NCBI GenBank assembly: GCA_963969495.1
Contig: OZ018327.1
Span: 30,573,175-30,637,174, forward strand
Direction: 5' to 3'
Length of the DNA: 64,000 nt
Source of the DNA: Ceratothoa steindachneri
Lineage: Eukaryota; Arthropoda; Malacostraca; Isopoda; Cymothoidae
The position numbers and the translations under genes were made by a program. The notes under the pieces were generated by a model. It saw nothing but the letters and a program-made list of their open reading frames with translations, did not search any database and was not told where the DNA came from. Shown one piece after another: positions 4,571-54,780 of the stretch; within the stretch, counting starts at the first letter, position 1, and every line of letters begins with the position of its first letter.

Positions 4571-4831
4571 TATCCTGAACTCAGGCAAGAGAGCATTGCC
4601 AAAGTCGTGATCCTCTTGACTCAAGGCACCTCTCCTATTCCACATCTTGTAAACTTTTTGCTTCTTACATTCACTCAAGTTTTCTTCCAATTTCACTTGC
4701 TCAATCAAATTTTCATACTTCCAAACATTCAACGTTATGCTCACAGAAAACACACTTGCATTCACCACACGCGTATCATTCTCCATATTCACCACTGTAT
4801 TTAACACACCCAATTTATCTCCCACTTGCAC
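4571..4831 (-). pseudogene. antisense pre-RT pol fragment of an older relative of the large gypsy element
   Basis: The minus strand encodes a peptide with QVGDKLGVLNTV, 'RRGALSQEDHDFG' and 'LLPEFRIIL'. It aligns with copy 1 Pol residues about 238-327 (QVGDVLGHLSTV, RKGALSKGDLDFG, KLPEFKIVL) at roughly 40 percent identity by eye. The frame continues across the copy 1 insertion: bases 13792-13810 on the minus strand supply the preceding 'VLRG' residues. Copy 1 therefore landed inside this older copy in the opposite orientation. The fragment ends at about 4570 against the other gypsy remnant. Confidence 0.65.
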
Positions 4832-5696
4832 TGTGGTGGGGCGAATGTGAGTGTGTGTAAAAGGGCCATTCTCCCACCCCTTTTCTCAGTACCCTCTCCC
4901 TCCCTCTGTAAGAATGTGTGTGAATGGGAATGGGTTTGTTTTATTTTTGTTAAATTCATGTATAAAATGATTACCATGTTTTTCTTTCTTTCCAGGCGTT
5001 ATTCTGGAAAGATAAAAGCTAATTTTAAGATATCACTCTAAAAGATATTTCCTTGTTTAAATTGAACTTTAACGAAGCGTTATTCTGGAAAGAGGTAAGC
5101 TAGTCAATGTATTTTCGGGTAATGCCCAATTATTGGTTTCGCCATCCATGTATAAATGGATGGATCACTGAAGGAGGATATATCTCTTCTTCAGAGAGAG
5201 TGGAAGTGCAGACTGGAAGCAAGAGGGGTTCTATAGAGGAGTGCTCCACCCAGCCCTGAGAGGAGGGCTTTCGTGTCTCTATCCACCTGAACCGCCATAC
5301 CTGCCTTCGTTGACAATCCTGCCTCCTTCTAGTTAGCCAACTACCGCCCACCTCCAGCAAGACATAGCGCGTGTCCCCTTTTCGTTCGGTTGTGGTTGTG
5401 TTTTTTGTTTTGTCTAGAATTTACGTAAATTGTTGTATCCGCCCGTTATACGCTTCTCGTTTGGTATCATTATTTTTATTTGGGAATTTAGCCTCATTTT
5501 GAAGTGTGCACACTTCCCTAGTAAAATATAAAATTTTTGTAAATATAAACTGTAGCTATCATTGTATTTTTGTAAGTAAAGGGACTGTATATACAATCCG
5601 TTTTATTCTCCCTCGATTTCTCACGTCCGGACAGTGTAGGAAGCGGGTTGGATCGATTATCGATTGGGATTAGAGATCTATTTTCGGCCCGCTACA
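4832..5696 (+). repeat. 5' LTR of copy 1
   Basis: The 865-bp LTR carries TG...CA termini. A TATA box (TATAAA, 5151-5156) is a plausible promoter. Upstream of it the LTR holds a splice-acceptor-like tract ending in CAG at 4993-4995 and a donor-like GAG/GTAAGC at 5092-5100. These enclose 99 bp whose two ends repeat GCGTTATTCTGGAAAGA (4996-5012 and 5077-5093). I found no canonical AATAAA after the TATA box. Confidence 0.92.
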
Positions 5697-5698
5697 TT

Positions 5699-5716
5699 TG
5701 GCGCCCGAATAGGGAC
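5699..5716 (+). other. primer-binding site (tRNA-Lys type), copy 1
   Basis: TGGCGCCCGAATAGGGAC begins two bases after the LTR end. It differs at one base from the well-known tRNA-Lys3-complementary site of primate lentiviruses, so priming of minus-strand DNA by a tRNA-Lys is the likely reading. The identical site follows the LTR of copy 2. Confidence 0.85.
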
Positions 5717-5831
5717 GTGAGACTTCGAAACTGGGAGCGTGACTGGATTGGATTGCAGTCCATACCCAATTAGTGTGACAAGTAGTTTGATTGATTTTTC
5801 CCTCCTCCTATCTTTTACTAACTTGGGAAGA

Positions 5832-7541
5832 ATGGCTGTAGCGGAAACATTGAATGAAGAAGTAGTGCGATTGAGACTGGAGTTGAGGAAGAAAGAAGAG
5901 GAGTGTGAAATGTTGCGGGGAATGATGGAGGGAATGGAGAATAAAATAAAAGGGATGAATGAAAAGACTGATAGGATGAAGAAGGAAATGGGAGACCGAC
6001 AGGATCAGACGGACCGACGGATGCAGGACCTGTATAACATGATGACAGGGGCTGGATCAGTCCCAGGACCTACAACCCTGACCCCTGCTCCTACTGAAGG
6101 GACTCCGCTAAATGGAATGGATGGCAGTATGATCGAGTCTAAAGAAGATACTGTGAGTGGTAGGAAAGGGGGTGAATGGAAGAGAGTGGAAAGTAAGAGA
6201 GGAAGTAAGCATGGTTCTAAGGTTAAGGATAGGAAGGCGAGAGGGAAGAGTGTGGATTCGCTATACTCAGATGAGGGAGAGAGTGACGATATGATTGGAA
6301 TGAGTGAGACCGAGAGTAGCTCTTCGGAGAGTGAAGTGAATGTGGGAAAAGGAATTTTGATTAGGGAAGTGCCAAGGATTGATAAGTTTAGATTGCATGG
6401 GGGAAAGAGTATGGATGAGTTCTTCGGGGATTTTGAGCGGTACTGCAAGCTCAAGTACCCGCAGAACAAGGGTCACTGGGTGAGTGTTCTGGGAGATTGT
6501 TTGGATGGGAAAGTGTTGGAGTTCTTGCGAGTGATAACGAGTGTGGGAGAGCCAAAGTACGATGTAGTGAAGAAGAGATTGATTGGGCAGGTGAAACGAA
6601 TGAAAGAGAGTGTGAAGTATAAGAGGGTGAATGAATTTGAGAAGGCTCGAATGGGGAAGAGTGAAAGTGTGAATATGTATGCACATAGGCTTGAGAGTAT
6701 GGCAAGAACGAGGTATGGTGATGATGATGTAAATGAATGTAAACCACTCATGAGGAAGTTTTTGGACACGATCCCGCGAAAGGTGAGTGAATGGCTGAGT
6801 GGAAAGAGAAAGGAGAGAGTGAGACTGACAGGTGAACGGTTGATGTGGGAGGATGTGTTGGAACTGTTAGAAGATGGACGATTTGATGATGAAAGCGATC
6901 TAGAAGAGGATGGATGGTACAGTGTGAATGTTGGGGGTAAGAAGCCCAGGAGCTTTCATCCACCCCAGCAGTTTGTCAGCTACAGGGATGCCCTGAAGGC
7001 TGCACCAGCTGGAGTGATGTCAAACTTCCTGGGCCGGCAGAATGGATGGGCAAATGGAGGGTGGTCGAATGGAAGGGGGCAGATGAATTTCAAGCGTGGG
7101 AACGGATATATGAGAGAGAAACCGAGGTATGTCCCAGCAAATGAGAGACCGAATGGTGTGAGAAAGATTGTGGAATGTCGTCGGTGTGGAAGGAAAGGTC
7201 ATATGTTGGCAGAATGTAGGTGGACATCTGGTGCGTGTTTTGGGTGTGGTAAGAAAGGGCATATGATAAAGGATTGCCAGGAAAGTGTGAAAGAGTGCTT
7301 CGAGTGTAAAGAAATAGGCCATTTGAAGAAAGATTGTCCGAGGTTGAATGGTGGAGCAACTGCTGGGGAAAGTATGAAATATGCATGTGGTAATTGTGGA
7401 AAGGCTGGTCATTATGCAAGGATGTGTCGTGACCAGAGGAATGTATGTAGCTATTGTGCGATGGAAGGACATTCAAGTGAAAAGTGTTGGATTAGACTGA
7501 GAGCGCAAGGTGTGAATGGAAAGTCTGAAGCGGGAAACTGA
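5832..7541 (+). CDS. gag: Gag polyprotein, copy 1
   Basis: The 569-residue Gag forms the element's capsid and packages its RNA. Residues about 5-70 form a Glu/Lys/Met-rich heptad coiled coil. Residues 100-170 are a Ser/Lys/Glu-rich linker. Residues about 183-350 look like a retrotransposon capsid domain (IDKFRLHGG, FERYCKLKYP, LDTIPRKVSEWLSG). A Gly/Asn/Arg-rich stretch leads to five CX2CX4HX4C zinc knuckles whose first Cys are at 449, 469, 489, 519 and 539. I chose the start at MAVAET: an in-frame ATG at 5739 exists, but copy 2 has a one-base insertion between the two sites, so only the part from MAVAET is conserved. The stop overlaps the pol frame. Confidence 0.9.
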   Translation: MAVAETLNEEVVRLRLELRKKEEECEMLRGMMEGMENKIKGMNEKTDRMKKEMGDRQDQTDRRMQDLYNMMTGAGSVPGPTTLTPAPTEGTPLNGMDGSMIESKEDTVSGRKGGEWKRVESKRGSKHGSKVKDRKARGKSVDSLYSDEGESDDMIGMSETESSSSESEVNVGKGILIREVPRIDKFRLHGGKSMDEFFGDFERYCKLKYPQNKGHWVSVLGDCLDGKVLEFLRVITSVGEPKYDVVKKRLIGQVKRMKESVKYKRVNEFEKARMGKSESVNMYAHRLESMARTRYGDDDVNECKPLMRKFLDTIPRKVSEWLSGKRKERVRLTGERLMWEDVLELLEDGRFDDESDLEEDGWYSVNVGGKKPRSFHPPQQFVSYRDALKAAPAGVMSNFLGRQNGWANGGWSNGRGQMNFKRGNGYMREKPRYVPANERPNGVRKIVECRRCGRKGHMLAECRWTSGACFGCGKKGHMIKDCQESVKECFECKEIGHLKKDCPRLNGGATAGESMKYACGNCGKAGHYARMCRDQRNVCSYCAMEGHSSEKCWIRLRAQGVNGKSEAGN

Positions 7542-10500
7542 ATGGTAAGAGGGTACCTGCTGAAGTATCCTCTGGGTGCATGAGTGTGAGTAATGTGTTG
7601 GTAAGTCTGTCTAGTGTGAAAGTGCTGTCTGGTAGGAAGTATGAGTGTCTGAGTGTGAAGGTGGAGTTGAATGGAATTGAGTGTTTGGCTTTAATAGATT
7701 CTGGATGCAAGGCGAGCTTGGTGTATAAAGATGTGTATAACAAGTTTAGCGAGAAAGCCCTCCTGTCTGAGAGCAAGGGTAGTTTAGTAGGTATTGGTAA
7801 TAGGAGAGTGCCTGTGATTGGAATGATAAGGTCACCTGTTCGAATGCATGGTATGATGATGAATGAATGTGAATTTTCTGTGATTGATAAGGTGAGTAGT
7901 GAGTATGGTGTGATTTTGGGGTATGATTTTATGAAAATCAATCGTATGGTTGTGCATCCTGCGAGTGATCAGATTGAGAGAAAGATTGGTAAAAATGGGG
8001 TGTATAAGTTGTATGTAGGGAAAGATGGTAGCGTTTTGAGGAGTGTGTTTACTGGTATAGAGGTGACTGCTATGGAGAGTGTAAGGCTTGTGAAGGGTGA
8101 AAGGGTGTCTGTTAGAGTGAGTTGGAGTAAGGATGTTAGTTTGAATGTGAGTGAGAACACTGTGATATTGGATGGAAAGGATGCGTGTTATAAGGTAAGG
8201 CGTGTTGCTTGTGTGTTTGATGGCTTGATGAGAATGAATGATCCTTTTGTATGTGTGCAGGCAGACCCCAGTGTGAAAGGGCAGGTGAGGGGAATCCAAG
8301 TCGGAGATGTACTGGGCCACCTCTCCACTGTCAATGAGGTAGGTATGGATGATAGTACGGATATCAGGGTGAATGTTGCGAATGAAAAGACATGTGAATG
8401 GATGTATAATGAGGTGAAGGACATGGTGAAATTGGATGGATGTTTGACTGAGTATGAAAGGGAGGATGTGTATCGAATGATATTTGAGCGAAAGGGAGCC
8501 CTCAGTAAGGGTGATCTGGATTTCGGGGTTGCAAAGCTCCCGGAATTCAAGATTGTCCTGAAGGAGGACTCCCCAATCTATCAGCGGCCGAGGCATTTCC
8601 CACGTCCGGTTGCTGAAGAGATTGAGGAGCAGTGTTTGGAATTGGAGCAATTGGGGGTGATTGAGGAGAGTGAGAGTGCATGGAATAGTCCAATTGTACC
8701 TGTACGTAAGCCGGATGGAAGATTGCGTCTGTGTGTGGATTATCGAAAGGTGAATGAAAGGACTGTGAAAGAAAGGTTTCCGATGTGTGTGGTATCTGAG
8801 TGTGTGTATAGTATGCATGGGATGGAGTGGTTTACGAAGCTGGATCTGGTACGGGGGTATTACCAGATGCCCATTGCTGAGGAGAGCCGGCCAGTAACTG
8901 CCTTCTCTTCCTCAAAGAGGCATTACCAGTTCCGGAACCTCAGCTTTGGGTTGGCTAATGCTCCCGGAGCCTTCCAGCGGGCAATGAATGTTGTGTTGAG
9001 TAAGTTTGCGAGTAAGAATGTGATTGCGTTTATAGATGATATTTTGATTATGACTGAGACTTTTGAGGAGCATATGAGATTGGTGAATGATGTGTTGAGA
9101 ACGTTGGAGAGTGTTGGTGTGAAGGTGAAAGTGGCGAAGTGTGAATGGTTTGCGAAAGAAGTGGAATTCCTTGGACATATGGTGAGTGAGAATGGATTGC
9201 GTAAATCATCGAAGTATGTTGAGAAGGTGCGAATGTTTCCTAAACCGGTGACTGTGAAGCAACTGAAGTCATTTTTGGGTTTGATTGAGTTCCAGCGAAA
9301 GTTTATACGTGATTGTTCTGGTGTGAGTAAGCCTCTGACTGAGTGGATGGGCAAGAAAGGTAGTACGGTTGTCAAGTGGAATGATAAGATGAATGAGGCG
9401 TATGAGAGACTGAAGGAGGCAGCGGTTGAAGATGTTGAATTAGCTTACCCAGATTATAGTGTAAATGCTAAAATGCTTGAATTGTATACAGATGCGAGTG
9501 GGTATTGTATGGGAGGTTTTCTGATGCAAGAGCAGCGTTTGAATGGAGAGAATGTCAGGCGAATAATTGGGTATGTATCCAAGGCTATGAATGTTGCAGA
9601 ACGAAAGTATTCGACTGTGGAACGAGAGCTGGCTGCGATAAGATATTGTTTGAAAGTGTTGCGTCCATTTTTGTATGGTGTGAGGTTTGTGATAAAAACC
9701 GATCATCAACCTCTTGTGTATCTGCAGCGTATGAAGTGGGCTGATAGTAGGATTGCAAGGACTTTGGAAGATTTGAGTGACTTTGACTATGTGATTGAGT
9801 ATGTGCCTGGTGAACGGAATGGAGTGGCTGATTTGATGTCAAGGTATCCTGGTACGAATGATGAAAATGTGTGTGGAGTGAGTGATCCTGAATATTTGCC
9901 GAAAGGAATTATGAATGGAAAAGAGAGTAAGGGTGGTGGTGATTCCTTGTTTGAGAGTGTATGGAATGGTTTGCAAGATTTGAAGAGTGATGGAGTAGAT
10001 GTGAGAGTGCCCGATAGTGTAGATGATTTAAGGAAGGAGGTAATGAATGAAGTGTGTAGGAAGCCTGAAAGCATTGGTATGGCAAAGGTGCGGAACTTCA
10101 TGAAAGAATTGAGAGCGATGTGTATGCAAGGGGTCCCGCCATTTCAGGAAGTGTTGATTGTAGTGAGTCGTTTGTATGGAGTGATTGTATATGTGCACTT
10201 TGGTGGTGAAAGGCCGATTGTGTACAAGGATGAGAAGATGAAGGGTTTGAATCCTAATGTGGTACATCTGCAATGTTTGAGCGGTGTGCACTACAATTGG
10301 GTGATTGAAAAGTGTTCATATATAAGAGAGAAGAATGATTGTCTGGATGAAGATGAGCGTGTGGTGAGTGATGATATGGGAGTTAATGACAGTGTGGATA
10401 TAAGTGCTGATGTTGGCGTGCTTGTTCCTTCGGTGTATTGTGAACATGGTGGACCTGATATGATGGAAGCGAGAGTGAAAGTTGGTGAAAGGTTGTTCTG

Positions 10501-12877
10501 TGGTTTGATTGATACTGGAGCGCAGGTGTCTTTAGTGAATGAGAATATTCTGAGTAAGTATGAAGAGTTTAGATGTTGCGAGCATAAACCTGTGAAGTTA
10601 CGGATAAGTGGATTAGGGAATGGCATGATAGTGGCATGGGAACTGGTTAGTCTGAAAGTGAGTTTGGGTAATGGTGTGAATGTGAAGCATGACTTTGTGA
10701 TTCTGAAAGGTGAGCAAATGCCTTGTTGTTTCTTGCTTGGTGTAGACTTTATGAGATTGAATGATTTGTCTTTGGATGCTGATAAGGATCGTCTTATGAA
10801 AGGTGAATGTGAGGTGATGAGGTTGAATGAGTGTGCAAAGAATGTTGTCAAGTTTTGCGGTATGATTGAGTTGGTCATGGATGATGAGAATGAGATTTTA
10901 AGTGATGATGATATTCTAGAGATGCAAGAGATGTGTCCTTTTGTTAGTGAGTTGAAGAGGTGTGTAATGATGCGTGTTGATTTGAATGAATGGCCAGAGT
11001 GTTTAAGTGATTTTAAAAGGTATGCTAAGGATTTTGTTGTTTGTATGGATGTTGTATATTTTGTGAGGCATGTGAAGGGTGGTGATGATATGTATGTACC
11101 TGTGATGTCCTTAGTTGGTATGATTGGTCTGGTGAAGGTTGTGCATGATAATTATGGGCATATGGGTAAGTTTAAGCTGTGGGAGTGTATGAAGGAGCAT
11201 GTGTTCCACCCGTTTCTGAGAACTGTTGTGAATGATGTTGCAACTACGTGTGAAAGGTGTCAGAAGCGAAAGGTACAAGGTGTGCAAGTGAAACCACCGA
11301 TGTTGAAAGTTGATGCGAAAGAACCGTTTGAATTGGTAGTGATTGATTGTGTGTCTTTGCCGCGTACGAGTGCTGGGAATGTTGGTATGGTTGTGATGGT
11401 TGACCATAAAAGTAAGTTTGGGTATGCAGCGCCTGTGAGAGATAAAAGGAGTGTGACTGTTGCGTGTGTGGTTGAGCAGTTGTTTTTTCCTATGTGTGTA
11501 TGGAAGCCTAGAAGATGTCTGAGTGATAATGGGCCTGAATTTGTAGGGGAAGTGTTTGAGCAAATGTTGAGAGAGAATGGTGTGGAGCATGTGAGAACAA
11601 CTCCGTATGTACCGTCTTCAAATGGATTGGCTGAACGGACTATAAGAACCTTGTGTGAGATGTTGAGAATGATGAGTACGACAGTGAATGACTGGGATGT
11701 GTGTCTGGGGAGAGTGTTGTGGGCGTATAATTCAACTGTGCATAGTGCAACTGGAATGTCCCCATGTCAGTTTGTGATGAATTTTGAAAGGCGAGTGAAA
11801 GATAGGTTTCGTTTGAGTGAAAGTGAGCAGAGTGTATGGCGTGAGGCGCATGAAAGGTTCCGTTCATTTGAATTAGGTGCAAAAGTATTGAAGGTGAAAG
11901 AAGTGAAGGGTAGGTTGAATGTGTCAAAGATGAGTGAGAAGTTTGATGGACCTTATAGAGTTGTGAGGGTTTGGGAAAATGGAGTGACGTATGTTTTGGA
12001 GAGTTTGAATGACGGCATGACTGAGAGAGTGCGGGCTCATCAGAGTCAGTTAAGGAGATGGAGAGAACCTCCTGACTACCTGGTGAGCCATCCAGTGTAT
12101 GGACTGTGTAGAGAGAGAGGTAAAGTGCATGATGATGAGATTGAATGTGATAGTATGGATCTGTCTGGGAAAGAGCTAGTCTTAGTCTCGAGGAGTAGAA
12201 AGCGTACAAAGAAGGGTGAAAGGAAGAATGCAAGTACGAATGAAAGTAAGTCTGAGCAGAGTGTTTCTGGTATGGGGGATCTTGAAAGGGAGATTGAGTT
12301 TTTGCGTAAACAGGTGAGTGATTTGGCTGGTATAAGTAGACGAGTGAGTGAGCTGCCTGTGCCTGATTTTTCTGGTTTTGGGAACAGTATGAATGATAGT
12401 GTGTTTGGGCAGAATGAACCTAGTGTGGCTGATTTTTCGGGTTTTATGAATGGTAATAGTAGGGGTGAGTTTGATGTAGTGAATGATGAAGTGGCTGATT
12501 TTTCAGGTTTCTGGTGGGAACCAGTTGAAGGGGTTTCTGGTATGCCTGTTGAGAATACAGGGGATGTGAGTGACCTGTCTGTTTCGCAAGAATGTACCTT
12601 GAGTTGGATGAGAGCTGTGAATGAGGAGCTGATGAATGGGGGTATGAAGAGTGAGAGTTCTGAACGGAAGAGTATGAAAGAATTCTGTCGTGAGATGGGA
12701 GAACTGGTAATGAGGGCTAAGAGTATGGTTGATGAGATGATAAATAGTGATGATGAGACTGACAGGACGACTGACGAACAACCCCGACTAATTGCTACGC
12801 GTAGCCAGGGACCAGTAGACGAGTGTGAATGGGTGCAGAAGGGTGCGATTGAGCACAAGTGGTACCGTGAAGAGTGA
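7529..12877 (+). CDS. pol: Pol polyprotein, copy 1 (PR-RT-RH-OTU-like-PR2-IN-tail)
   Basis: The frame opens at 7529, 13 nt inside gag, and is probably entered by -1 frameshifting; its first ATG is 7580 (residue 1 below). Domains: retropepsin 1 (LIDSG 38-42, ILGYDF 112-117); RT about 340-540 (LDLVRGYY, FIDD 484-487); RNase H about 630-755 (TDAS 637-640, ERELA, TDHQ 707-710); OTU-like about 783-915 (GDSLF 787-791 with Ser789 where Cys is expected, HYNWV at 904); retropepsin 2 (LIDTG 976-980, FLLGVDF 1051-1057); integrase zinc finger H1189/H1194/C1224/C1227; core D1256, D1316, E1352 (DD35E); GPY 1457-1459; then a ~280-residue tail with DFSGF at 1596, 1618 and 1640 and a short coiled coil before it. 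It copies and integrates the element. The tail lacks membrane segments. Confidence 0.92.
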   Translation, partial: SGKLNGKRVPAEVSSGCMSVSNVLVSLSSVKVLSGRKYECLSVKVELNGIECLALIDSGCKASLVYKDVYNKFSEKALLSESKGSLVGIGNRRVPVIGMIRSPVRMHGMMMNECEFSVIDKVSSEYGVILGYDFMKINRMVVHPASDQIERKIGKNGVYKLYVGKDGSVLRSVFTGIEVTAMESVRLVKGERVSVRVSWSKDVSLNVSENTVILDGKDACYKVRRVACVFDGLMRMNDPFVCVQADPSVKGQVRGIQVGDVLGHLSTVNEVGMDDSTDIRVNVANEKTCEWMYNEVKDMVKLDGCLTEYEREDVYRMIFERKGALSKGDLDFGVAKLPEFKIVLKEDSPIYQRPRHFPRPVAEEIEEQCLELEQLGVIEESESAWNSPIVPVRKPDGRLRLCVDYRKVNERTVKERFPMCVVSECVYSMHGMEWFTKLDLVRGYYQMPIAEESRPVTAFSSSKRHYQFRNLSFGLANAPGAFQRAMNVVLSKFASKNVIAFIDDILIMTETFEEHMRLVNDVLRTLESVGVKVKVAKCEWFAKEVEFLGHMVSENGLRKSSKYVEKVRMFPKPVTVKQLKSFLGLIEFQRKFIRDCSGVSKPLTEWMGKKGSTVVKWNDKMNEAYERLKEAAVEDVELAYPDYSVNAKMLELYTDASGYCMGGFLMQEQRLNGENVRRIIGYVSKAMNVAERKYSTVERELAAIRYCLKVLRPFLYGVRFVIKTDHQPLVYLQRMKWADSRIARTLEDLSDFDYVIEYVPGERNGVADLMSRYPGTNDENVCGVSDPEYLPKGIMNGKESKGGGDSLFESVWNGLQDLKSDGVDVRVPDSVDDLRKEVMNEVCRKPESIGMAKVRNFMKELRAMCMQGVPPFQEVLIVVSRLYGVIVYVHFGGERPIVYKDEKMKGLNPNVVHLQCLSGVHYNWVIEKCSYIREKNDCLDEDERVVSDDMGVNDSVDISADVGVLVPSVYCEHGGPDMMEARVKVGERLFCGLIDTGAQVSLVNENILSKYEEFRCCEHKPVKLRISGLGNGMIVAWELVSLKVSLGNGVNVKHDFVILKGEQMPCCFLLGVDFMRLNDLSLDADKDRLMKGECEVMRLNECAKNVVKFCGMIELVMDDENEILSDDDILEMQEMCPFVSELKRCVMMRVDLNEWPECLSDFKRYAKDFVVCMDVVYFVRHVKGGDDMYVPVMSLVGMIGLVKVVHDNYGHMGKFKLWECMKEHVFHPFLRTVVNDVATTCERCQKRKVQGVQVKPPMLKVDAKEPFELVVIDCVSLPRTSAGNVGMVVMVDHKSKFGYAAPVRDKRSVTVACVVEQLFFPMCVWKPRRCLSDNGPEFVGEVFEQMLRENGVEHVRTTPYVPSSNGLAERTIRTLCEMLRMMSTTVNDWDVCLGRVLWAYNSTVHSATGMSPCQFVMNFERRVKDRFRLSESEQSVWREAHERFRSFELGAKVLKVKEVKGRLNVSKMSEKFDGPYRVVRVWENGVTYVLESLNDGMTERVRAHQSQLRRWREPPDYLVSHPVYGLCRERGKVHDDEIECDSMDLSGKELVLVSRSRKRTKKGERKNASTNESKSEQSVSGMGDLEREIEFLRKQVSDLAGISRRVSELPVPDFSGFGNSMNDSVFGQNEPSVADFSGFMNGNSRGEFDVVNDEVADFSGFWWEPVEGVSGMPVENTGDVSDLSVSQECTLSWMRAVNEELMNGGMKSESSERKSMKEFCREMGELVMRAKSMVDEMINSDDETDRTTDEQPRLIATRSQGPVDECEWVQKGAIEHKWYREE
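7532..7573 (+). promoter_or_regulatory. -1 programmed ribosomal frameshift signal, gag/pol
   Basis: The gag frame ends GCG GGA AAC TGA, containing the slippery heptamer G GGA AAC (7532-7538) in the correct phase. Slipping back one base reads GGG AAA CTG and enters the pol frame, which is open from 7529. A 9-bp stem follows after a 9-nt spacer: 7548-7556 (AGAGGGTAC) pairs with 7565-7573 (GTATCCTCT), with one G-U pair and an 8-nt loop. This is the classic architecture. The same arrangement occurs in copy 2. Confidence 0.85.
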
Positions 12878-12913: not shown

Positions 12914-12926
12914 AAGGAAGGAGGGG
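12914..12926 (+). other. polypurine tract, copy 1
   Basis: AAGGAAGGAGGGG ends exactly at the first base of the 3' LTR. It is the expected RNase H-resistant primer for plus-strand DNA synthesis. Confidence 0.85.
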
Positions 12927-13791
12927 TGTGGTGGGGCGAATGTGAGTGTGTGTAAAAGGGCCATTCTCCCACCCCTTTTCTCAGTACCCTCTCCCTCCCT
13001 CTGTAAGAATGTGTGTGAATGGGAATGGGTTTGTTTTATTTTTGTTAAATTCATGTATAAAATGATTACCATGTTTTTCTTTCTTTCCAGGCGTTATTCT
13101 GGAAAGATAAAAGCTAATTTTAAGATATCACTCTAAAAGATATTTCCTTGTTTAAATTGAACTTTAACGAAGCGTTATTCTGGAAAGAGGTAAGCTAGTC
13201 AATGTATTTTCGGGTAATGCCCAATTATTGGTTTCGCCATCCATGTATAAATGGATGGATCACTGAAGGAGGATATATCTCTTCTTCAGAGAGAGTGGAA
13301 GTGCAGACTGGAAGCAAGAGGGGTTCTATAGAGGAGTGCTCCACCCAGCCCTGAGAGGAGGGCTTTCGTGTCTCTATCCACCTGAACCGCCATACCTGCC
13401 TTCGTTGACAATCCTGCCTCCTTCTAGTTAGCCAACTACCGCCCACCTCCAGCAAGACATAGCGCGTGTCCCCTTTTCGTTCGGTTGTGGTTGTGTTTTT
13501 TGTTTTGTCTAGAATTTACGTAAATTGTTGTATCCGCCCGTTATACGCTTCTCGTTTGGTATCATTATTTTTATTTGGGAATTTAGCCTCATTTTGAAGT
13601 GTGCACACTTCCCTAGTAAAATATAAAATTTTTGTAAATATAAACTGTAGCTATCATTGTATTTTTGTAAGTAAAGGGACTGTATATACAATCCGTTTTA
13701 TTCTCCCTCGATTTCTCACGTCCGGACAGTGTAGGAAGCGGGTTGGATCGATTATCGATTGGGATTAGAGATCTATTTTCGGCCCGCTACA
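12927..13791 (+). repeat. 3' LTR of copy 1
   Basis: 865 bp, apparently identical to the LTR at 4832-5696 base by base, ending CTACA. It is followed by target duplication GCAC (13792-13795). Confidence 0.92.
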
Positions 13792-13803
13792 GCACTCCTC
13801 TAA

Positions 13804-14034: not shown

Positions 14035-14089
<55 letters not shown>
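14035..14089. repeat. (AT)n microsatellite
   Basis: About 27 uninterrupted AT dinucleotides. Confidence 0.97.
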
Positions 14090-23617: not shown

Positions 23618-24486
23618 TGTGGTGGGGCGAATGTGAGTGTGTGTAAAAGGGCCATTCTCCCACCCCTTTTCTCAGTACCCTCTCCCTCCCTCTGTAAGAA
23701 TGTGTGTGAATGGGAATGGGTTTGTTTTATTTTTGTTTATTTCATGTATAAAATGATTACCATGTTTTTCTTTCTTTCCAGGCGTTATTCTGGAAAGATA
23801 GTAGCTAATTTTTAAATATCACTATAATAAGATAGTTCTTTGTTTAAATTAACTTTTATCAAAGCGTCATATTCTGGAAAGAGGTAAGCTAGTCGATGTA
23901 TTTTCGAGTAATGCCCACTTATTAGTTTCGCCATCCATGTATAAATAAATGGGTCATAAAAGGAGGATATATCTCTTCTACAGAGAGTGGAAGTGTGGAC
24001 TGGTAGCAAGAGGGGTTCTATAGACGAGTGCTCCACCCAGCCCTGAGAGGAGGGCTTTCGTGCCTCGCCAACCACCTGAACCACCATACCCGCCTTCGTT
24101 GACAATCCTGCCTCCTTCTAGTTAACCAACTACCACCCACCTCCAGCAAGTCATAGCGCGTGTCCCCTTTTCGTTCGGTTGTGGTTGTGTTTTTTGTTTT
24201 GTGTAGAATTTACGTAAATTGTTGTATCCGCCCGTTATAAGATTCTCGTTTGGTATCGTTATTTTGATTGGGGAATTTAGCCTCATTTTGAAGTGTGCAC
24301 ACTTCCCTAGTAAATATAAAATTTTGTAAATATAAACTGTAACTATCATTGTATTTTTTTTGTAAGTAAAGGGACTGTATATACAATTCGTTTTATTCTC
24401 CCTCGATTTCTCACGTCCGGACAGTGTAGGAAGCGGGTTGGATCGATTATCGATTGGGATTAGAGATCTATTTTCGGCCCGCTGCA
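23618..24486 (+). repeat. 5' LTR of copy 2
   Basis: 869 bp, TGTGG...CTGCA. Compared with the copy 1 LTR the first ~150 bp are almost the same. The segment around the splice-like sites and TATA box carries many substitutions and small indels. The acceptor-like TTTCCAG and donor-like GAGGTAAGC are kept. Confidence 0.92.
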
Positions 24487-24488
24487 TT

Positions 24489-24506
24489 TGGCGCCCGAAT
24501 AGGGAC
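24489..24506 (+). other. primer-binding site, copy 2
   Basis: Identical to the copy 1 site, TGGCGCCCGAATAGGGAC, two bases after the LTR. Confidence 0.85.
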
Positions 24507-24622
24507 GTGAGACTTCGAAACTGGGAGCGTGACTGGATTGGATTGCAGTCCATACCCAATTAGTGTGACAAGTAGTTTGATTGATTTTTCCCTTCTCCTA
24601 TCTTTTTACTAACTTGGGAACA

Positions 24623-26332
24623 ATGGCTGTAGCGGAAACGTTGAATGAAGAAGTAGTGCGATTGAGACTGGAGTTGAGAAAGAAAGAAGAGGAGTGTGAA
24701 ATGTTGCGGGGAATGATGGAGGGAATGGAGAATAAAATAAAAGGGATGAATGAAAAGACTGATAAGATGAAGAAGGAAATGGGAGACCGACAGGATCAGA
24801 CGGACCGACGGATGCAGGACCTGTATAACATGATGACAGGGGCTGGATCAGTCCCAGGACCTACAACCCTGACCCCTGCTCCTACTGAAGGGACTCCGCT
24901 AAATGGAATGGATGGCAGTATGATTGAGTCTAAAGAAGATACTGTGAGTGGTAGGAAAGGGGGTGAATGGAAGAGAGTGGAAAGTAAGAGAGGAAGTAAG
25001 CATGGTTCTAAGGTTAAGGATAGGAAGGCGAGAGGGAAGAGTGTGGATTCGCTATACTCAGATGAGGGAGAGAGTGACAATATGATTGGAATGAGTGAGA
25101 CCGAGAGTAGCTCTTCGGAGAGTGAAGTGAATGTGGGGAAAGGAATTTTGATTAGGGAAGTGCCAAGGATTGATAAGTTTAGATTGCATGGGGGAAAGAG
25201 TATGGATGAGTTCTTCGGGGATTTTGAGCGGTACTGCAAGCTCAAGTACCCGCAGAACAAGGGTCACTGGGTGAGTGTTCTGGGAGATTGTTTGGATGGG
25301 AAAGTGTTGGAGTTCTTGCGAGTGATAACGAGTGTGGGAGAGCCAAAGTACGATGTAGTGAAGAAGAGATTGATTGGGCAGGTGAAACGAATGAAAGAGA
25401 GTGTGAAGTATAAGAGGGTGAATGAATTTGAGAAGGCTCGAATTGGGAAGAGTGAAAGTGTGAATATGTATGCACATAGGCTTGAGAGTATGGCAAGAAC
25501 GAGGTATGGTGATGATGATGTAAATGAATGTAAACCACTCATGAGGAAGTTTTTGGACACGATCCCGCGAAAGGTGAGTGAATGGCTGAGTGGAAAGAGA
25601 AAGGAGAGAGTGAGACTGACAGGTGAACGGTTGATGTGGGAGGATGTGTTGGAACTGTTAGAAGATGGACGATTTGATGATGAAAGCGATCTAGAAGAGG
25701 ATGGATGGTACAGTGTGAATGTTGGGGGTAAGAAGCCCAGGAGCTTTCATCCACCCCAGCAGTTTGTCAGCTACAGGGATGCCCTGAAGGCTGCACCAGC
25801 TGGAGTGATGTCAAACTTCCTGGGCCGGCAGAATGGATGGGCAAATAGAGGGTGGTCGAATGGAAGGGGGCAGATGAATTTCAAGCGTGGGAACAGATAT
25901 ATGAGAGAGAAACCGAGGTATGTCCCAGCAAACGAGAGACCGAATGGTGGGAGAAAGATTGTGGAATGTCGTCGGTGTGGAAGGAAAGGTCATATGTTGG
26001 CAGAATGTAGGTGGACATCTGGTGCGTGTTTTGGGTGTGGTAAGAAAGGGCATATGATAAAGGATTGCCAGGAAAGTGTGAAAGAGTGCTTCGAGTGTAA
26101 AGAAATAGGCCATTTGAAGAAAGATTGTCCGAGGTTGAATGGTGGAGCAACTGGTGGGGAAAGTATGAAATATGCATGTGGTAATTGTGGAAAGGCTGGT
26201 CATTATGCAAGGATGTGTCGTGACCAGAGGAATGTATGTAGCTATTGTGCGATGGAAGGACATTCAAGTGAAAAGTGTTGGATTAGACTGAGAGCGCAAG
26301 GTGTGAATGGAAAGTCTGAAGCGGGAAACTGA
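24623..26332 (+). CDS. gag: Gag polyprotein, copy 2
   Basis: Intact 569-codon gag beginning MAVAET, with only a handful of substitutions from copy 1 (for example D-to-N near residue 153 and M-to-I near 274). The coiled coil, capsid-like region and all five CCHC knuckles are present. A one-base insertion upstream (TTTTTACTAAC) puts the region before MAVAET in a different frame from copy 1, which supports this start. Since pol is broken, this copy could still supply Gag. Confidence 0.88.
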   Translation: MAVAETLNEEVVRLRLELRKKEEECEMLRGMMEGMENKIKGMNEKTDKMKKEMGDRQDQTDRRMQDLYNMMTGAGSVPGPTTLTPAPTEGTPLNGMDGSMIESKEDTVSGRKGGEWKRVESKRGSKHGSKVKDRKARGKSVDSLYSDEGESDNMIGMSETESSSSESEVNVGKGILIREVPRIDKFRLHGGKSMDEFFGDFERYCKLKYPQNKGHWVSVLGDCLDGKVLEFLRVITSVGEPKYDVVKKRLIGQVKRMKESVKYKRVNEFEKARIGKSESVNMYAHRLESMARTRYGDDDVNECKPLMRKFLDTIPRKVSEWLSGKRKERVRLTGERLMWEDVLELLEDGRFDDESDLEEDGWYSVNVGGKKPRSFHPPQQFVSYRDALKAAPAGVMSNFLGRQNGWANRGWSNGRGQMNFKRGNRYMREKPRYVPANERPNGGRKIVECRRCGRKGHMLAECRWTSGACFGCGKKGHMIKDCQESVKECFECKEIGHLKKDCPRLNGGATGGESMKYACGNCGKAGHYARMCRDQRNVCSYCAMEGHSSEKCWIRLRAQGVNGKSEAGN

Positions 26333-29300
26333 ATGGTAAGAGGGTACCTGCTGAAGTATCCTCTGGGTGCATGAGTGTGAGTAATGTGTTGGTAAGTCTG
26401 TCTAGTGTGAAAGTGCTGTCTGGTAGGAAGTATGAGTGTCTGAGTGTGAAGGTGGAGTTGAATGGAATTGAGTGTTTGGCTTTAATAGATTCTGGATGCA
26501 AGGCGAGCTTGGTGTATAAAGATGTGTATGACAAGTTTAGCGAGAAAGCCCTCCTGTCTGAGTGCAAGGGTAGTTTAGTAGGTATTGGTAATAGGAGAGT
26601 GCCTGTGATTGGAATGATAAGGTCACCTGTTCGAATGCATGGTATGATGATGAATGAATGTGAATTTTCTGTGATTGATAAGGTGAGTAGTGAGTATGGT
26701 GTGATTTTGGGCTATGATTTTATGAAAATGAATCGTATGGTTGTGCATCCTGCGAGTGATCAGATTGAGAGAAAGATTGGTAAAAATGGGGTGTATAAGT
26801 TGTATGTAGGGAAAGATGGTAGCGTTTTGAGGAGTGTGTTTACTGGTATTGAGGTGACTGCTATGGAGAATGTAAGGCTTGTGAAGGGTGAAAGGGTGTC
26901 TGTTAGAGTGAGTTGGAGTAAGGATGTTAGTTTGAATGTGAGTGAGAACACTGTGATATTGGATGGAAAGGAAGCGTGTTATAAGGTAAGGCGTGTTGCT
27001 TGTGTGTTTGATGGCTTGATGAGAATGAATGATCCTTTTGTATGTGTGCAGGCAGACCCCAGTGTGAAAGGGCAGGTGAGGGGAATCCAAGTCGGAGATG
27101 TACTGGGCCACCTCTCCACTGTCAATGAGGTAGGTATGGATGATAGTACGGATATCAGGGTGAATGTTGCGAATGAAAAGACATGTGTATGGATGTATAA
27201 TGAGGTGAAGGACATGGTGAAATTGGATGGATGTTTGACTGAGTATGAAAGGGAGGATGTGTATCGAATGATATTTGAGCGAAAGGGAGCCCTTAGTAAG
27301 GGTGATCTGGATTTCGGGGTTGCAAAGCTCCCGGAATTCAAGATTGTCCTGAAGGAGGACTCCCCAATCTATCAGCGGCCGAGGCATTTCCCACGTCCGG
27401 TTGCTGAAGAGATTGAGGAGCAGTGTTTGGAATTGGAGCAATTGGGGGTGATTGAGGAGAGTGAGAGTGCATGGAATAGTCCAATTGTACCTGTACGTAA
27501 GCCGGATGGAAGATTGCGTCTGTGTGTGGATTATCGAAAGGTGAATGAAAGGACTGTGAAAGAAAGGTTTCCGATGTGTGTGGTATCTGAGTGTGTGTAT
27601 AGTATGCATGGGATGGAGTGGTTTACGAAGCTGGATCTGGTACGGGGGTATTACCAGATGCCCATTGCTGAGGAGAGCCGGCCAGTAACTGCCTTCTCTT
27701 CCTCAAAGAGGCATTACCAGTTCCGGAACCTCAGCTTTGGGTTGGCTAATGCTCCCGGAGCCTTCCAGCGGGCAATGAATGTTGTGTTGAGTAAGTTTGC
27801 GAGTAAGAATGTGATTGCGTTTATAGATGATATTTTGATTATGACTGAGACTTTTGAGGAGCATATGAGATTGGTGAATGATGTGTTGAGAACGTTGGAG
27901 AGTGTTGGTGTGAAGGTGAAAGTGGCGAAGTGTGAATGGTTTGCGAAAGAAGTGGAATTCTTTGGGCATATGGTGAGTGAGAATGGATTGCGTAAATCAT
28001 CAAAGTATGTTGAGAAGGTGCGAATGTTTCCTAAACCGGTGACTGTGAAGCAACTGAAGTCATTTTTGGGTTTGATTGAGTTCCAGCGAAAGTTTATACG
28101 TGATTGTTCTGGTGTGAGTAAGCCTCTGACTGGTTGGATGTGCAAGAAAGGTAGTACGGTTGTCAAGTGGAATGATAAGATGAATGAGGCGTATGAGAGA
28201 CTGAAGCAGGCAGCGGCTGAAGATGTTGAATTGGCTTACCCAGATTATAGTGTAAATGCTAAAATGCTTGAATTGTATACAGATGCGAGTGGGTATTGTA
28301 TGGGAGGTTTTCTGATGCAAGAGCAGCGTTTGAATGGAGAGAATGTCAGGCGAATAATTGGGTATGTATCCAAGGCTATGAATGTTGCAGAACGAAAGTA
28401 TTCGACTGTTGAACGAGAGCTGGCTGCGATAAGATATTGTTTGAAAGTGTTGCGTCCATTTTTGTATGGTGTGAGGTTTGTGATAAAAACCGATCATCAA
28501 CCTCTTGTGTATCTGCAGCGTATGAAGTGGGCTGATAGTAGGATTGCAAGGACTTTGGAAGATTTGAGTGACTTTGACTATGTGATTGAGTATGTGCCTG
28601 GTGAACGGAATGGAGTGGCTGATTTGATGTCAAGGTATCCTGGTACGAATGATGAAAATGTGTGTGGAGTGAGTGATCCTGAGTATTTGCCGAAAGGGAT
28701 TATGAATGGAAAAGAGAGTAAGGGTGGTGGTGATTCCTTGTTTGAGAGTGTATGGAATGGTTTGCAAGATTTGAAGAGTGATGGAGTAGATGTGAGAGTG
28801 CCCGATAGTGTAGATGATTTAAGGAAGGAGGTAATGAATGAAGTGTAGTAAGCCTGAAAGCATTGGTATGGCAAAGGTGCGGAACTTCATGAAAGAATTG
28901 AGAGCGATGTGTATGCAAGGGGTCCCGCCATTTCAGGAAGTGTTGATTGTAGTGAGTCGTTTGTATGGAGTGATTGTTTATGTGCACTTTGGTGGTGAGA
29001 GGCCGATTGTGTACAAGGATGAGAAGATGAAGGGTTTGAATCCTAATGTGGTACATCTGCAATGTTTGAGCGGTGTGCACTACAATTGGGTAATTGAAAA
29101 GTGTTCATATATAAGAGAGAAGAATGATTGTCTGGATGAAGATGAGTGTGTGTTGAGTGATGATATGGGAGTTAATGACAGTGTGGATATCAGTGCTGAT
29201 GTTGGTGTGCTTGTTCCTTCTGTGTATTGCGAACATGGTGGACCTGATATGATGGAAGCGAGAGTGAAAGTTAGTGAAAGGTTGTTCTGTGGTTTGATTG

Positions 29301-31658
29301 ATACTGGAGCGCAAGTGTCTTTAGTGAATGAGAATATTCTGAGTAAGTATGAAGAGTTTAGATGTTGCGAGCATAAACCTGTGAAGTTACGGATAAGTGG
29401 ATTAGGGAATGGCATGATAGTGGCATGGGAACAGGTTAGTCTGAAAGTGAGTTTGGGTAATGGTCAAGCATGACTTTGTGATTCTGAAGGGTGAGCAAAT
29501 GCCTTGTTGTTTCTTGCTTGGTGTAGACTTTATGAGATTAAATGATTTGTCTTTGGATGCTGATAAGGATTGTCTTATGAAAGGTGAATGTGAGGTGATG
29601 AAGTTGAATGAGTGTGCAAAGAATGTTGTCAAGTTTTGCGGTATGATTGAGTTGGTCATGGATGATGAGAATGAGATTTTAAGTGATGATGATATTCTAG
29701 AGATGCAAGAGATGTGTCCTTTTGTTAGTGAGTTGAAGAGGTGTGTAATGATGCGTGTTGATTTGAATGAATGGCCAGAGTGTTTAAGTGATTTTAAAAG
29801 GTATGCTAAGGATTTTGTTGTTTGTATGGATGTTGTATATTTTGTGAGGCATGTGAAGGGTGGTGATGATATGTATGTACCTGTGATGTCCTTAGTTGGT
29901 ATGATTGGTCTGGTGAAGGTTGTGCATGATAATTATGGGCATATGGGTAAATTTAAGCTGTGGGAGTGTATGAAGGAGCATGTGTTCCACCCGTTTCTGA
30001 GAACTGTTGTGAATGATGTTGCAACTACATGTGAAAGGTGTCAGAAGCGAAAGGTGCAAGGTGTGCAAGTGAAACCACCGATGTTGAAAGTTGATGCGAA
30101 AGAACCGTTTGAATTGGTAGTGATTGATTGTGTGTCTTTGCCGCGTACGAGTGCTGGGAATGTTGGTATGGTTGTGATGGTTGACCATAAAAGTAAGTTT
30201 GTGTATGCAGCGCCTGTGAGAGATAAAAGGAGTGTGACTGTTGCGCGTGTGGTTGAGCAGTTGTTTTTTCCTATGTGTGTATGGAAGCCTAGAAGATGTC
30301 TGAGTGATAATGGGCCTGAATTTGTAGGGGAAGTGTTTGAGCAAATGTTGAGAGAGAATGGTGTGGAGCATGTGAGAACAACTCCGTATGTACCGTCTTC
30401 AAATGGATTGGCTGAACGGACTATAAGAACCTTGTGTGAGATGTTGAGAATGATGAGTACGACAGTGAATGACTGGGATGTGTGTCTGGGGAGAGTGTTG
30501 TGGGCGTATAATTCAACTGTGCATAGTGCAACTGGAATGTCCCCATGTCAGTTTGTGATGAATTTTGAAAGGCGAGTGAAAGATAGGTTTCGTTTGAGTG
30601 AAAGTGAGCAGAGTGTATGGCGTGAGGCGCATGAAAGGTTCCGTTCATTTGAATTAGGTACAAAAGTATTGAAGGTGAAAGAAGTGAAGGGTAGGTTGAA
30701 TGTATCAAAGATGAGTGAGAAGTTTGATGGACCTTATAGAGTTGTGAGGGTTTGGGAAAATGGAGTGACGTATGTTTTGGAGAGTTTGAATGACGGCATG
30801 ACTGAGAGAGTGCGGGCTCATCAGAGTCAGTTAAGGAGATGGAGAGAACCTCCTGACTACCTGGTGAGCCATCCGGTGTATGGACTGTGTAGAGAAAGAG
30901 GTAAAGTGCATGATGATGAGATTGAATGTGATAGAATGGATCTGTCTGGGAAAGAGCTAGTCTTAGTCTCGAGGAGTAGAAAGCGTACAAAGAAGAGTGA
31001 AAGGAAGAATGCAAGTACGAATGAAAGTAAGTCTGAGCAGAGTGTTTCTGGTATGGGGGATCTTGAAAGGGAGATTGAGTTTTTGCGTAAACAGGTGAGT
31101 GATTTGGCTGGTATAAGTAGACGAGTGAGTGAGCTGCCTGTGCCTGATTTTTCTGGTTTTGGGAACAGTATGAATGATAGTGTGTTTGGGCAGAATGAAC
31201 CTAGTGTGGCTGATTTTTCGGGTTTTATGAATGGTAATAGTAGGGGTGAGTTTGATGTAGTGAATGATGAAGTGGCTGATTTTTCAGGTTTCTGGTGGGA
31301 ACCAGTCGAAGGGGTTTCTGGTATGCCTGTTGAGAATACAGGGGATGTGAGTGACCTGTCTGTTTCGCAAGAATGTACCTTGAGTTGGATGAGAGCTGTG
31401 AGTGAGGAGCTGATGAATGGGGGTATGAAGAGTGAGGGTTCTGAACGGAAGAGTATGAAAGAATTCTGTCGTGAGATGGGAGAACTGGTAATGAGGGCTA
31501 AGAGTATGGTTGATGAGATGATAAATAGTGACGATGAGACTGACAGGACGACTGATGAACAACCCAGACTAATTGCTACGCGTAGCCAGGGACCAGTAGA
31601 AGAGTGTGAATGGGTGCAGAAGGGTGTGATTGAGCACAAGTGGTACCGTGAAGAGTGA
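26320..31658 (+). pseudogene. pol: Pol polyprotein, copy 2, broken by two deletions
   Basis: The first frame (ATG 26371 to stop 28846-28848) covers retropepsin 1, RT (FIDD retained) and RNase H. It ends in the OTU-like domain, where a 2-bp deletion plus a G-to-T change create a stop. A second frame (to about 29473) covers the rest of the OTU-like domain and the second retropepsin active site (LIDTG). An 8-bp deletion near 29465 shifts again. The third frame (from about 29460 to 31658) encodes the end of retropepsin 2, the integrase with DD35E residues, GPY and the DFSGF tail. All domains are otherwise well conserved with copy 1, including Ser in the OTU-like nucleophile position. Confidence 0.9.
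26323..26364 (+). promoter_or_regulatory. -1 frameshift signal, copy 2
   Basis: GGGAAAC at 26323-26329 lies just before the gag stop. The same 9-bp stem follows (26339-26347 with 26356-26364), unchanged from copy 1. Confidence 0.82.
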
Positions 31659-31694
31659 TTGAAAGGGTTTAGTGAGTGGCTGGTCGAATGGCTT

Positions 31695-31707
31695 AAGGAA
31701 GGAGGGG
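31695..31707 (+). other. polypurine tract, copy 2
   Basis: AAGGAAGGAGGGG immediately before the 3' LTR. Confidence 0.83.
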
Positions 31708-32550
31708 TGTGGTGGGGCGAATGTGAGTGTGTGTAAAAGGGCCATTCTCCCACCCCTTTTCTCAGTACCCTCTCCCTCCCTCTGTAAGAATGTGTGTGAA
31801 TGGGAATGGGTTTGTTTTATTTTTGTTTATTTCATGTATAAAATGATTACCATGTTTTTCTTTCTTTCCAGGCGTTATTCTGGAAAGATAGTAGCTAATT
31901 TTTAAATATCACTATAATAAGATAGTTCTTTGTTTAAATTAACTTTTATCAAAGCGTCATATTCTGGAAAGAGGTAAGCTAGTCGATGTATTTTCGAGTA
32001 ATGCCCACTTATTAGTTTCGCCATCCATGTATAAATAAATGGGTCATAAAAGGAGGATATATCTCTTCTACAGAGAGTGGAAGTGTGGACTGGTAGCAAG
32101 AGGGGTTCTATAGATGAGTGCTCCACCCAGCCCTGAGAGGAGGGCTTTCGTGCCTCGCCAACCACCTGAACCGCCATACCCGCCTTCATTGACAATCCTG
32201 CCTCCTTCTAGTTAACCAACTACCACCCACCTCCAGCAAGTCATAGCGCGTGTCCCCTTTTCGTTCGGTTGTGGTTGTGTTTTTTGTTTTGTGTAGAATT
32301 TACGTAAATTGTTGTATCCGCCCGTTATAAGATTCTCGTTTGGTATCGTTATTTTGATTGGGGAATTTAGCCTCATTTTGAAGTGTGCACACTTCCCTAG
32401 TAAATATAAATTTTGTAAATATAAACTGTAACTATCATTGTATTTTTTTTGTAAGTAAAGGGACTGTATATACAATTCGTTTTATTCTCCCTCGATTTCT
32501 CACGTCCGGACAGTGTAGGAAGCGGGTTGGATCGATTATCGATTGGGATT
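31708..32550 (+). repeat. 3' LTR of copy 2, 3'-truncated
   Basis: Matches the copy 2 5' LTR through GATTGGGATT, then breaks. The last 25 bases are absent and a G/C-hairpin repeat starts at 32551. Differences from the 5' LTR include single substitutions near 32116, 32172 and 32188 and a one-base deletion near 32410. Confidence 0.9.
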
Positions 32551-35800: not shown

Positions 35801-35885
35801 GTCACCACTAGGTTGGTTTTGCCTCTTGTGACCCTATATGTCCTCCCTTTCTTTGCTAAAATTATTTTAACAAATGCCGATCCAA
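32870..35885 (-). pseudogene. decayed APE-type LINE ORF2 (endonuclease-RT), minus strand
   Basis: In minus-strand order: an endonuclease part (35404-35880) with KWLVMGDFNAHVGG, SAIDFAIINR and TDHKAIIVKV; linker and RT fingers (34513-35109) with KNHKAMDEE and CVPETWQKSRINLLPKGG; RT palm (33929-34333) with FLDIEKVFDRVDK, GVRQGCTMSPSLF and GFKDDIVLVS (catalytic box FKDD instead of FADD); thumb (33386-33905); and a C-terminal region (32875-33135) with remnants of a Cys/His finger. Several stops and frameshifts. The clade is not certain. The N-terminal endonuclease piece lies at 36760-37042, separated by an inserted mini-LINE. Confidence 0.72.
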
Positions 35886-54089: not shown

Positions 54090-54780
54090 CGATGTAATCT
54101 AAGCTCCACTCAGCGAACCTGCGATTTTGGTCTTGGTCTGGGCCCGCCTGCCCACCCGGGAAAGCCTTGGGCTGATGAAAATCCCAGGAAGATTGTTGAA
54201 AAGCCACCGAATCCAACAAAAGGTCACTGTTTGGTGTGCATTTTTTGCTAGCGGAATCATTGGGCCGTATTTCTTCGAAAATGATGCCGAGAATTCTGTT
54301 ACGGTAACAGGCGAGCAATACCGTGCCATGATAAACAACTTTTTATGGCCTGAATTGAATTCTATGGATGTCGAAGATTTGTGGTTTCAACAGGACGGCG
54401 CCACATGCCACACAGCCAATGCAACAATGGCTTTATTGAATGAGAAGTTCCCAGGTCGCATCATCTCTTGAAACAGCGAGGTCAATTGGCCACCACGATC
54501 GTGTGACTTGAAGCCTTTAGATTTTTTCCTTTGGGGTCATCTCAAAAGTAAGGTCTATGCCAACAAGCCAACAACAATTCAACAGCCGAAGGATGAGATA
54601 ATAGGGCATATTGGTGAGTTCGAAGAGAAACTATGCAGAGACGTCATCAAAAATTTTGACCATTGAGTGGAGGTGTGCCGCCGAAGCCTTGGCGGACATT
54701 TAGGCCATAGTATTTTTCACCCATAATTGCCATGACTCAAATAACATGATCCAATAGTGAAATCAATAAATTTTCACCAA
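54090..54780 (+). pseudogene. mariner/IS630-type transposase, C-terminal remnant
   Basis: The plus strand encodes KVTVWCAFFASGIIGPYFFE, WFQQDGATCHTA, FPGRIIS, then after a stop WPPRSCDLKPLDFFLWGHLK and KVYANKPTTIQQ. These are the second and third catalytic segments of an IS630-Tc1-mariner transposase (Asp in QQDGA, Asp in PLDFF). Stops at about 54471 and 54664 and loss of the N-terminus make it inactive. It abuts the truncated LINE copy A. Confidence 0.8.

Follow-up and report, generated by a model that had tools for sequence, protein, structure and literature searches.

In Gypsy retrotransposons, Pol is a well-mapped polyprotein with a single protease ahead of the reverse transcriptase (RT). 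Added domains have been described in some mobile elements, including an OTU-like protease in Helentrons, a dUTPase in the Pol of certain retroelements (PMC6431247) and, in Ginger1 DNA transposons, an OTU domain within the same protein as a Gypsy-like integrase (PMC2836005). Here we describe a Ty3/Gypsy-type retrotransposon from the isopod Ceratothoa steindachneri, in a 64,000-nucleotide stretch of contig OZ018327.1 (positions 30,573,175 to 30,637,174, forward strand; this whole stretch is termed the window, and positions count from its first letter). Its Pol has the order PR1-RT-RNase H-OTU-PR2-integrase, with two retropepsins (PR1 and PR2), followed by a fast-changing tail. Two retropepsins and an OTU-like domain between RNase H and integrase had been proposed in an initial annotation of the sequence, and were confirmed by Pfam and structure matches.

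A Gypsy element with an added OTU-PR2 block

The window contains two copies of the element, the first of which is intact, with the following features:

4832..5696 (+): 5' long terminal repeat (LTR), 865 bp, TG...CA, with the 4-bp target-site duplication (TSD) GCAC at 4828-4831; flanks read directly
5697..5720 (+): putative primer binding site behind the 5' LTR, read directly, which we take to resemble the tRNA-Lys type
5832..7541 (+): gag, starting at the first ATG of the open reading frame (ORF) 5739-7541, with several CCHC zinc knuckles
7532..7538 (+): GGGAAAC, probable -1 frameshift site, immediately 5' of the gag stop at 7539-7541
7580..12877 (+): reading frame of pol, which lies in the -1 frame and is open from position 7529
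7646..7954 (+): PR1 retropepsin, residues 23-125, with LIDSG and ILGYDF
8702..9181 (+): RT, residues 375-534, with FIDDI
9377..9784 (+): RNase H, residues 600-735
9887..10324 (+): OTU-fold domain, residues 770-915, with GGGDS (Ser789 at the OTU Cys position) and HYN (His904)
10439..10774 (+): PR2 retropepsin, residues 954-1065, with Asp978, FLLGVDF and conserved C954, H956, C974 and C1050
11132..11614 (+): integrase H2C2 zinc finger and DDE core, residues 1185-1345
11948..11965 (+): GPY/F motif, residues 1457-1462 (GPY at 1457), read directly
12365..12511 (+): three DFSGF motifs in the tail (residues 1596-1600, 1618-1622 and 1640-1644), resembling the LEDGF/IBD-binding motif
12914..12926 (+): polypurine tract, read directly
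12927..13791 (+): 3' LTR, same sequence as the 5' LTR, with the TSD GCAC at 13792-13795
24581..31658 (+): coding region of the second copy, with pol broken in OTU and PR2 and an LTR pair 99.5% identical

The first copy is young and intact, and belongs to a distinct clade of Ty3/Gypsy-type elements: its LTRs (4832-5696 and 12927-13791) are 100% identical over 865 bp, and it shares with Ty3/Gypsy elements (Metaviridae) the TG...CA termini, the 4-bp TSD, the gag zinc knuckles, the order PR-RT-RNase H-integrase, the GPY/F motif and an RT nearest to Ty3/Gypsy, as judged among PDB entries, where Ty3 is the best match of Pol (E 1.1e-81). Unlike those elements, it adds the OTU-PR2 block between RNase H and integrase, as well as a tail with FxGF motifs. 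An NCBIfam scan returned only transposase, RT and one chance-like match. The coding strand has a strong excess of G over C (skew 0.43-0.52) in the 4-kb windows 8001-12000, 24001-28000 and 28001-32000, which lie inside the two elements.

Other mobile elements resemble this one only in part. Troyka elements have CG...CG termini, a 3-bp TSD and no GPF/Y (PMC12440569), and are ruled out by the TG...CA termini, 4-bp TSD and GPY found here. Ginger1 likewise has a Gypsy-like integrase and an OTU in one protein, but its OTU lies C-terminal to the integrase in a DNA transposon with terminal inverted repeats; the window element has LTRs and an RT, and its OTU precedes the integrase, which rules out Ginger1. 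Helentrons and the dUTPase-bearing retroelements are similar in that each is a mobile element with an extra domain, but they differ in the domain or in the type of element, and the part of PMC6431247 available mentions no second retropepsin.

The layout marks a clade

With residues 760-1180 as the query, 66 proteins were recovered, and scans with hidden Markov models found an OTU, with PR2 behind it, in all 66. Among the best 120 of 2682 proteins from a search with RT-RNase H, 116 had an OTU and 115 had PR2 after it. The pooled set holds 162 OTU-bearing proteins (window protein included), in 161 of which PR2 follows the OTU; the exception, P0146, stops 33 residues past its OTU. PR1 was found in 140 of the 162, and the other 22 start too far downstream to include it (their OTU starts at position 696 or earlier, versus 706 or later where PR1 is present). 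The four OTU-less proteins of the RT-RNase H set are long, have 30-37% identity and contain more than one RT-like motif. Together with 118 new proteins obtained with a pseudoscorpion Gypsy query they form a comparison set of 122, in none of which an OTU was detected (E up to 0.01).

In a FastTree phylogeny built on a subsample of RT domains (48 of 157 from carriers and 45 of 182 from non-carriers), the carriers fall into a single clade with an SH-like support of 1.0 and a branch of 0.51, and an interim IQ-TREE phylogeny (a run that ended early, without support values) also groups them together. Judged by these RT sequences, the layout marks one clade among the sampled carriers, a question that the initial annotation had raised. 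The comparison set leans to elements of pseudoscorpions, green algae and fish, and the RT matches ranked 1-120 were covered, such that elements lacking the block may be nested inside the clade. Contig searches with the OTU and RT alignments in IMG/VR, and with the OTU alignment in GTDB genomes, produced no relative. The initial annotation also knew of no named lineage with this order, and we found no description of the layout in the open literature, a weak absence given that most subscription journals, Repbase and GyDB lie outside it. A large group of relatives thus shares the layout with an OTU and a second protease, and appears to be undescribed.

The block is maintained by selection

The element is abundant in its host: within the 3.93-Gb assembly, the OTU-PR2 block occurs at no fewer than 121 places, at 98-100% identity and without stops, a lower bound drawn from the best-scoring candidates, among which decayed copies would go unseen. 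Forty-two of the 121 listed places share the top score (window copy included), and 31 of these 42 lie in a 1782-residue open frame. For 20 of the listed copies, picked among those 98-99% identical, the ratio of non-silent to silent substitution rates (dN/dS) of unique changes relative to the window copy was 0.19 in OTU (13 silent, 10 non-silent), 0.35 in PR2 (10 silent, 13 non-silent) and 0.30 across the block (26 silent, 31 non-silent). The two window copies agree with this: OTU and PR2 substitutions between them by codon position number 0, 0 and 6 and 1, 1 and 7, respectively, so that 13 of 15 fall at third positions and are mostly silent (P 3e-5). The block is very probably under purifying selection, and the initial proposal of an inserted module fits what we see, with real folds lying adjacent as one block and dN/dS values of 0.19-0.35. 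Single genome copies have altered active-site residues (Ser789 in L033, His904 in L041).

The same proposal held that the block is conserved in both window copies, which proved incorrect for the second (LTRs starting at 23618 and 31708): both frame-shifting lesions in its pol are short deletions, which hit OTU and PR2 once each, and between the copies OTU and PR2 change faster than RT. These features count against a functional block and are what one would cite for a passenger or decaying insertion without function. Such a reading is already contradicted by the conservation data, namely the retention of the block across the clade, the low dN/dS and the many open copies (subject to the same bias toward the best-scoring places), and we consider it very improbable indeed.

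Between the window copies, divergence is at most about 1% in gag, RT and integrase and about 2.6% in PR2, whereas their LTRs differ by about 5% plus gaps, even though the LTR pairs within each copy are 100% and 99.5% identical. This pattern suggests that subfamilies have exchanged LTRs through recombination, or else that LTRs turn over fast. Elsewhere in the genome, five block copies at G000:C9:271933-353111, each with a 1782-residue open frame, are evenly spaced at about 20.05 kb, and constitute a tandem array of a larger unit.

An OTU fold that has mostly lost its cysteine

The structure model of residues 770-915 recovers an OTU fold, as found by re-examining the top Foldseek matches with VIA-align. 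The Pfam OTU model PF02338 matched two of 16 fragments (best E 0.084) and not that of the window, a miss that we do not count against the fold. The domain resembles OTU deubiquitinases (OTUD3, OTUD5 and OTUD1, and the nairovirus OTU) in its predicted fold, its catalytic His (His904, in 162 of 162) and the Asn behind it (Asn906, in 158 of 162), but differs in its nucleophile and in its location inside a retroelement Pol. The nucleophile position is occupied by Ser in 152 of the 162 proteins, by Ala in six, and by Thr and Cys in two each; the preceding Asp788 is present in 138 and replaced by Asn in 18. The idea of an ordinary OTU ubiquitin hydrolase finds no support, given this replacement of the catalytic Cys. 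In the interim RT tree, Ser carriers surround the sampled Cys and Ala carriers, so that Ser looks ancestral for the clade at this position.

The joint retention of Ser, His and Asn, and the nesting of the two Cys members among Ser carriers, might be read as signs of an active Ser-based hydrolase that strips ubiquitin, or a relative of it, from Gag, integrase or host factors. We regard this as quite improbable: Ala and Thr at the nucleophile in eight proteins mean that hydrolysis cannot be general among OTUs of the clade. In Drosophila, Otu and CG3251 have undergone the same natural change from Cys to Ser, albeit in cellular genes, and both are reported to lack deubiquitinase activity in vitro, even with the Cys restored (PMC4654579); by analogy, these proteins would argue against an active serine deubiquitinase, not against binding. 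A histidine groove that is kept while Ala is partly tolerated favors binding over cutting, and because the nucleophile Cys is mostly lost, its most likely role is to bind ubiquitin, or else a ubiquitin-like tag, and leave it uncut. Weighing against a role confined to binding, the two members with Cys could still be classic OTU enzymes. The near-fixed Ser, with rare Cys and Ala relatives, offers a natural series on what OTU folds do without their Cys.

A second retropepsin with a candidate zinc site

Pfam, VIA-align and PDB profile matches all bear out the earlier assignment of PR2 to the retropepsins; its model has the fold and the D[TS]G motif, and all 161 proteins retain the catalytic Asp (that of PR1 is present in 139 of 140, with one gap). 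PR2 also has a Cys/His cluster, consisting of Cys954 (159 of 161), His (133) or Cys (20) at position 956, Cys974 (157) and Cys1050 (153), whereas an alignment of 13 PR1 domains contains no conserved Cys or His column. Exchange of His and Cys, as at position 956, is typical of a metal ligand, and we infer that C-x-[HC]...C...C is a zinc site that staples the fold, something that, to our knowledge, would be novel in a retropepsin. Tempering this proposal, the evidence for zinc is the conservation itself, and C954 and H956 lie in regions of moderate model confidence (block means 54 and 65).

As for its source, PR2 most likely derives from a Gypsy-type protease. PR1 and PR2 align over 114 columns, i.e., the whole domain (hhalign probability 99.6%, E 3e-24), and a PR2 profile gives in-clade PR1 a median of 36.3 bits (n=140), above the 23.4 (best 33.4) of the comparison proteins, of which it matched 70 of 122, as expected after a duplication. 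With a PR1 profile, PR2 has a median of 56.7 bits (n=161) versus 37.1 for 102 comparison proteins, but the best of the latter, at 66.0, exceeds the PR2 median; and in an interim IQ-TREE phylogeny of proteases (without support values) PR2 forms one group (35 of 35) but PR1 does not, its best split leaving 10 misplaced. These sequence comparisons support a single origin of PR2 and make duplication of PR1 its likely source, although a simple PR1 duplicate is not upheld outright: the PR2 profile favors it, the PR1 profile is mixed, and PR1 is not one group in the tree.

The initial annotation had suggested that the block might cut Gag-Pol on both flanks of RT-RNase H, or else target host ubiquitin. 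Our best guess for the function of the block is a ubiquitin-guided second protease, and its main rival is a PR2 that serves in processing only. In the latter, PR2 would dimerize with itself or with PR1 and free the integrase from RT-RNase H, and the OTU would be a folded spacer or dimerization part. The position of PR2 directly ahead of the integrase, its invariant Asp and its resemblance to PR1 all suit such a role, but a spacer would not require GGG[DN]S and the His in nearly all members, and would not be held at least as tightly as PR2 (dN/dS 0.19 versus 0.35); we consider this rival rather unlikely. Under the ubiquitin-guided reading, PR1 would be the ordinary maturation protease, and PR2 a second active protease that OTU binding brings to ubiquitin-tagged substrates, either host restriction proteins or the Gag and Pol of the element itself. 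In its strongest form, PR2 would destroy tagged host restriction factors or rescue tagged proteins of the element.

Ubiquitin-guided proteolysis of this kind would operate in the manner of Ddi1, and Ddi1 and Ddi2 have a role in the ubiquitin pathway. PR2 shares their retropepsin fold and has its best PDB profile matches among Ddi1 proteases, but it differs in its Cys/His cluster, and a Pfam scan of Pol (E up to 1) found no UBL or UBA families. PR1 also has Ddi1 as its nearest PDB match, which detracts from the parallel; because of it, the likeness to Ddi1 does not single out PR2 for a role with ubiquitin. We therefore propose the ubiquitin-guided step only tentatively. The clade-wide pairing of a second retropepsin with an OTU fold points to a stage in the life cycle of retroelements that has gone unrecognised, and perhaps to a direct connection between these elements and the ubiquitin system.

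LEDGF-type motifs in the integrase tail

The second main result concerns the tail. Among 128 tails of at least 100 residues (from the 162 proteins), F.GF is present in 96, with 151 occurrences versus 1.74 expected by shuffling, a procedure that ignores the kinship of the tails. An acidic residue lies within five positions before the motif in 116 of the 151 cases, and FSGF and F.GF are the top spaced patterns among those present in at least 40 tails. Otherwise the tails show little conservation (nine comparisons with the window tail gave 17-36% identity). Other enriched patterns are TR..G (95 of 128 tails) and P.VQ (68 of 128; e.g., P0001, residues 1511-1765). FxGF binds JIL-1 and PSIP1 partners to LEDGF/IBD domains, JIL-1 having DFxGFDE (PMC6877644). 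The tail motifs resemble those of LEDGF/p75 and JASPer partners in having FxGF in an acidic setting, and differ in sitting in a retroelement tail and in being known from sequence only. HIV integrase relies on the same host domain but does so through a site that is prearranged in its structure (PMC10854676). In the genome of the isopod host, one LEDGF-domain exon exceeds the cut-off of Pfam (E 6.7e-8; 56 of 120 positions).

We think it somewhat probable, on these motif counts, that the Pol tail docks on a LEDGF/JASPer-type chromatin reader via FxGF, which would steer insertion into transcribed chromatin. Several counts weaken the case: 32 of 128 tails lack F.GF, 26 of the 128 proteins have it in their upstream part, which is much longer than the tail, and 11 of 122 comparison proteins have it in their second half. 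We found no description pairing FxGF or LEDGF with retrotransposons in the open literature, a weak absence with most subscription journals outside it. If true, FxGF tails extend LEDGF-type integration targeting to retrotransposons, and insects, where JASPer is known, suit its testing.

Taken together, a distinct Gypsy clade with a ubiquitin-guided PR2 and a chromatin-docking tail is our best overall explanation, at a confidence not far short of even. It is unlikely to hold in its fullest version, in which a Metaviridae clade would combine a ubiquitin-guided endoprotease, made of a Ser-type OTU and a zinc-stapled PR2, with tethering to LEDGF/JASPer by FxGF mimicry that arose independently of HIV.

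Expression of Pol

The -1 frame of pol, open from 7529, overlaps gag, and the overlap includes GGGAAAC, presumably a canonical slippery heptamer. A 9-bp hairpin (7548-7573) begins nine bases past it. The heptamer and the gag stop are kept in 14 of 14 fetched genome copies (and also in the second window copy) and the exact hairpin in 13 of the 14, so Pol is likely made through a -1 frameshift at the end of gag. To be set against this, the hairpin does not clearly exceed shuffled sequences in stability (z -1.40 over 42 nt and 0.19 over 121 nt).

Other features of the window

Outside the two elements, an (AT)n microsatellite at 14035-14088 shows as a 54-bp palindrome in self-comparison. Recognised by eye were ORFs resembling pieces of a non-LTR retrotransposon (RT, endonuclease) at 33929-35808 (-), a Gypsy-like RT piece of another element at 40317-40658 (-), and a mariner-like transposase piece at 54127-54471 (+).
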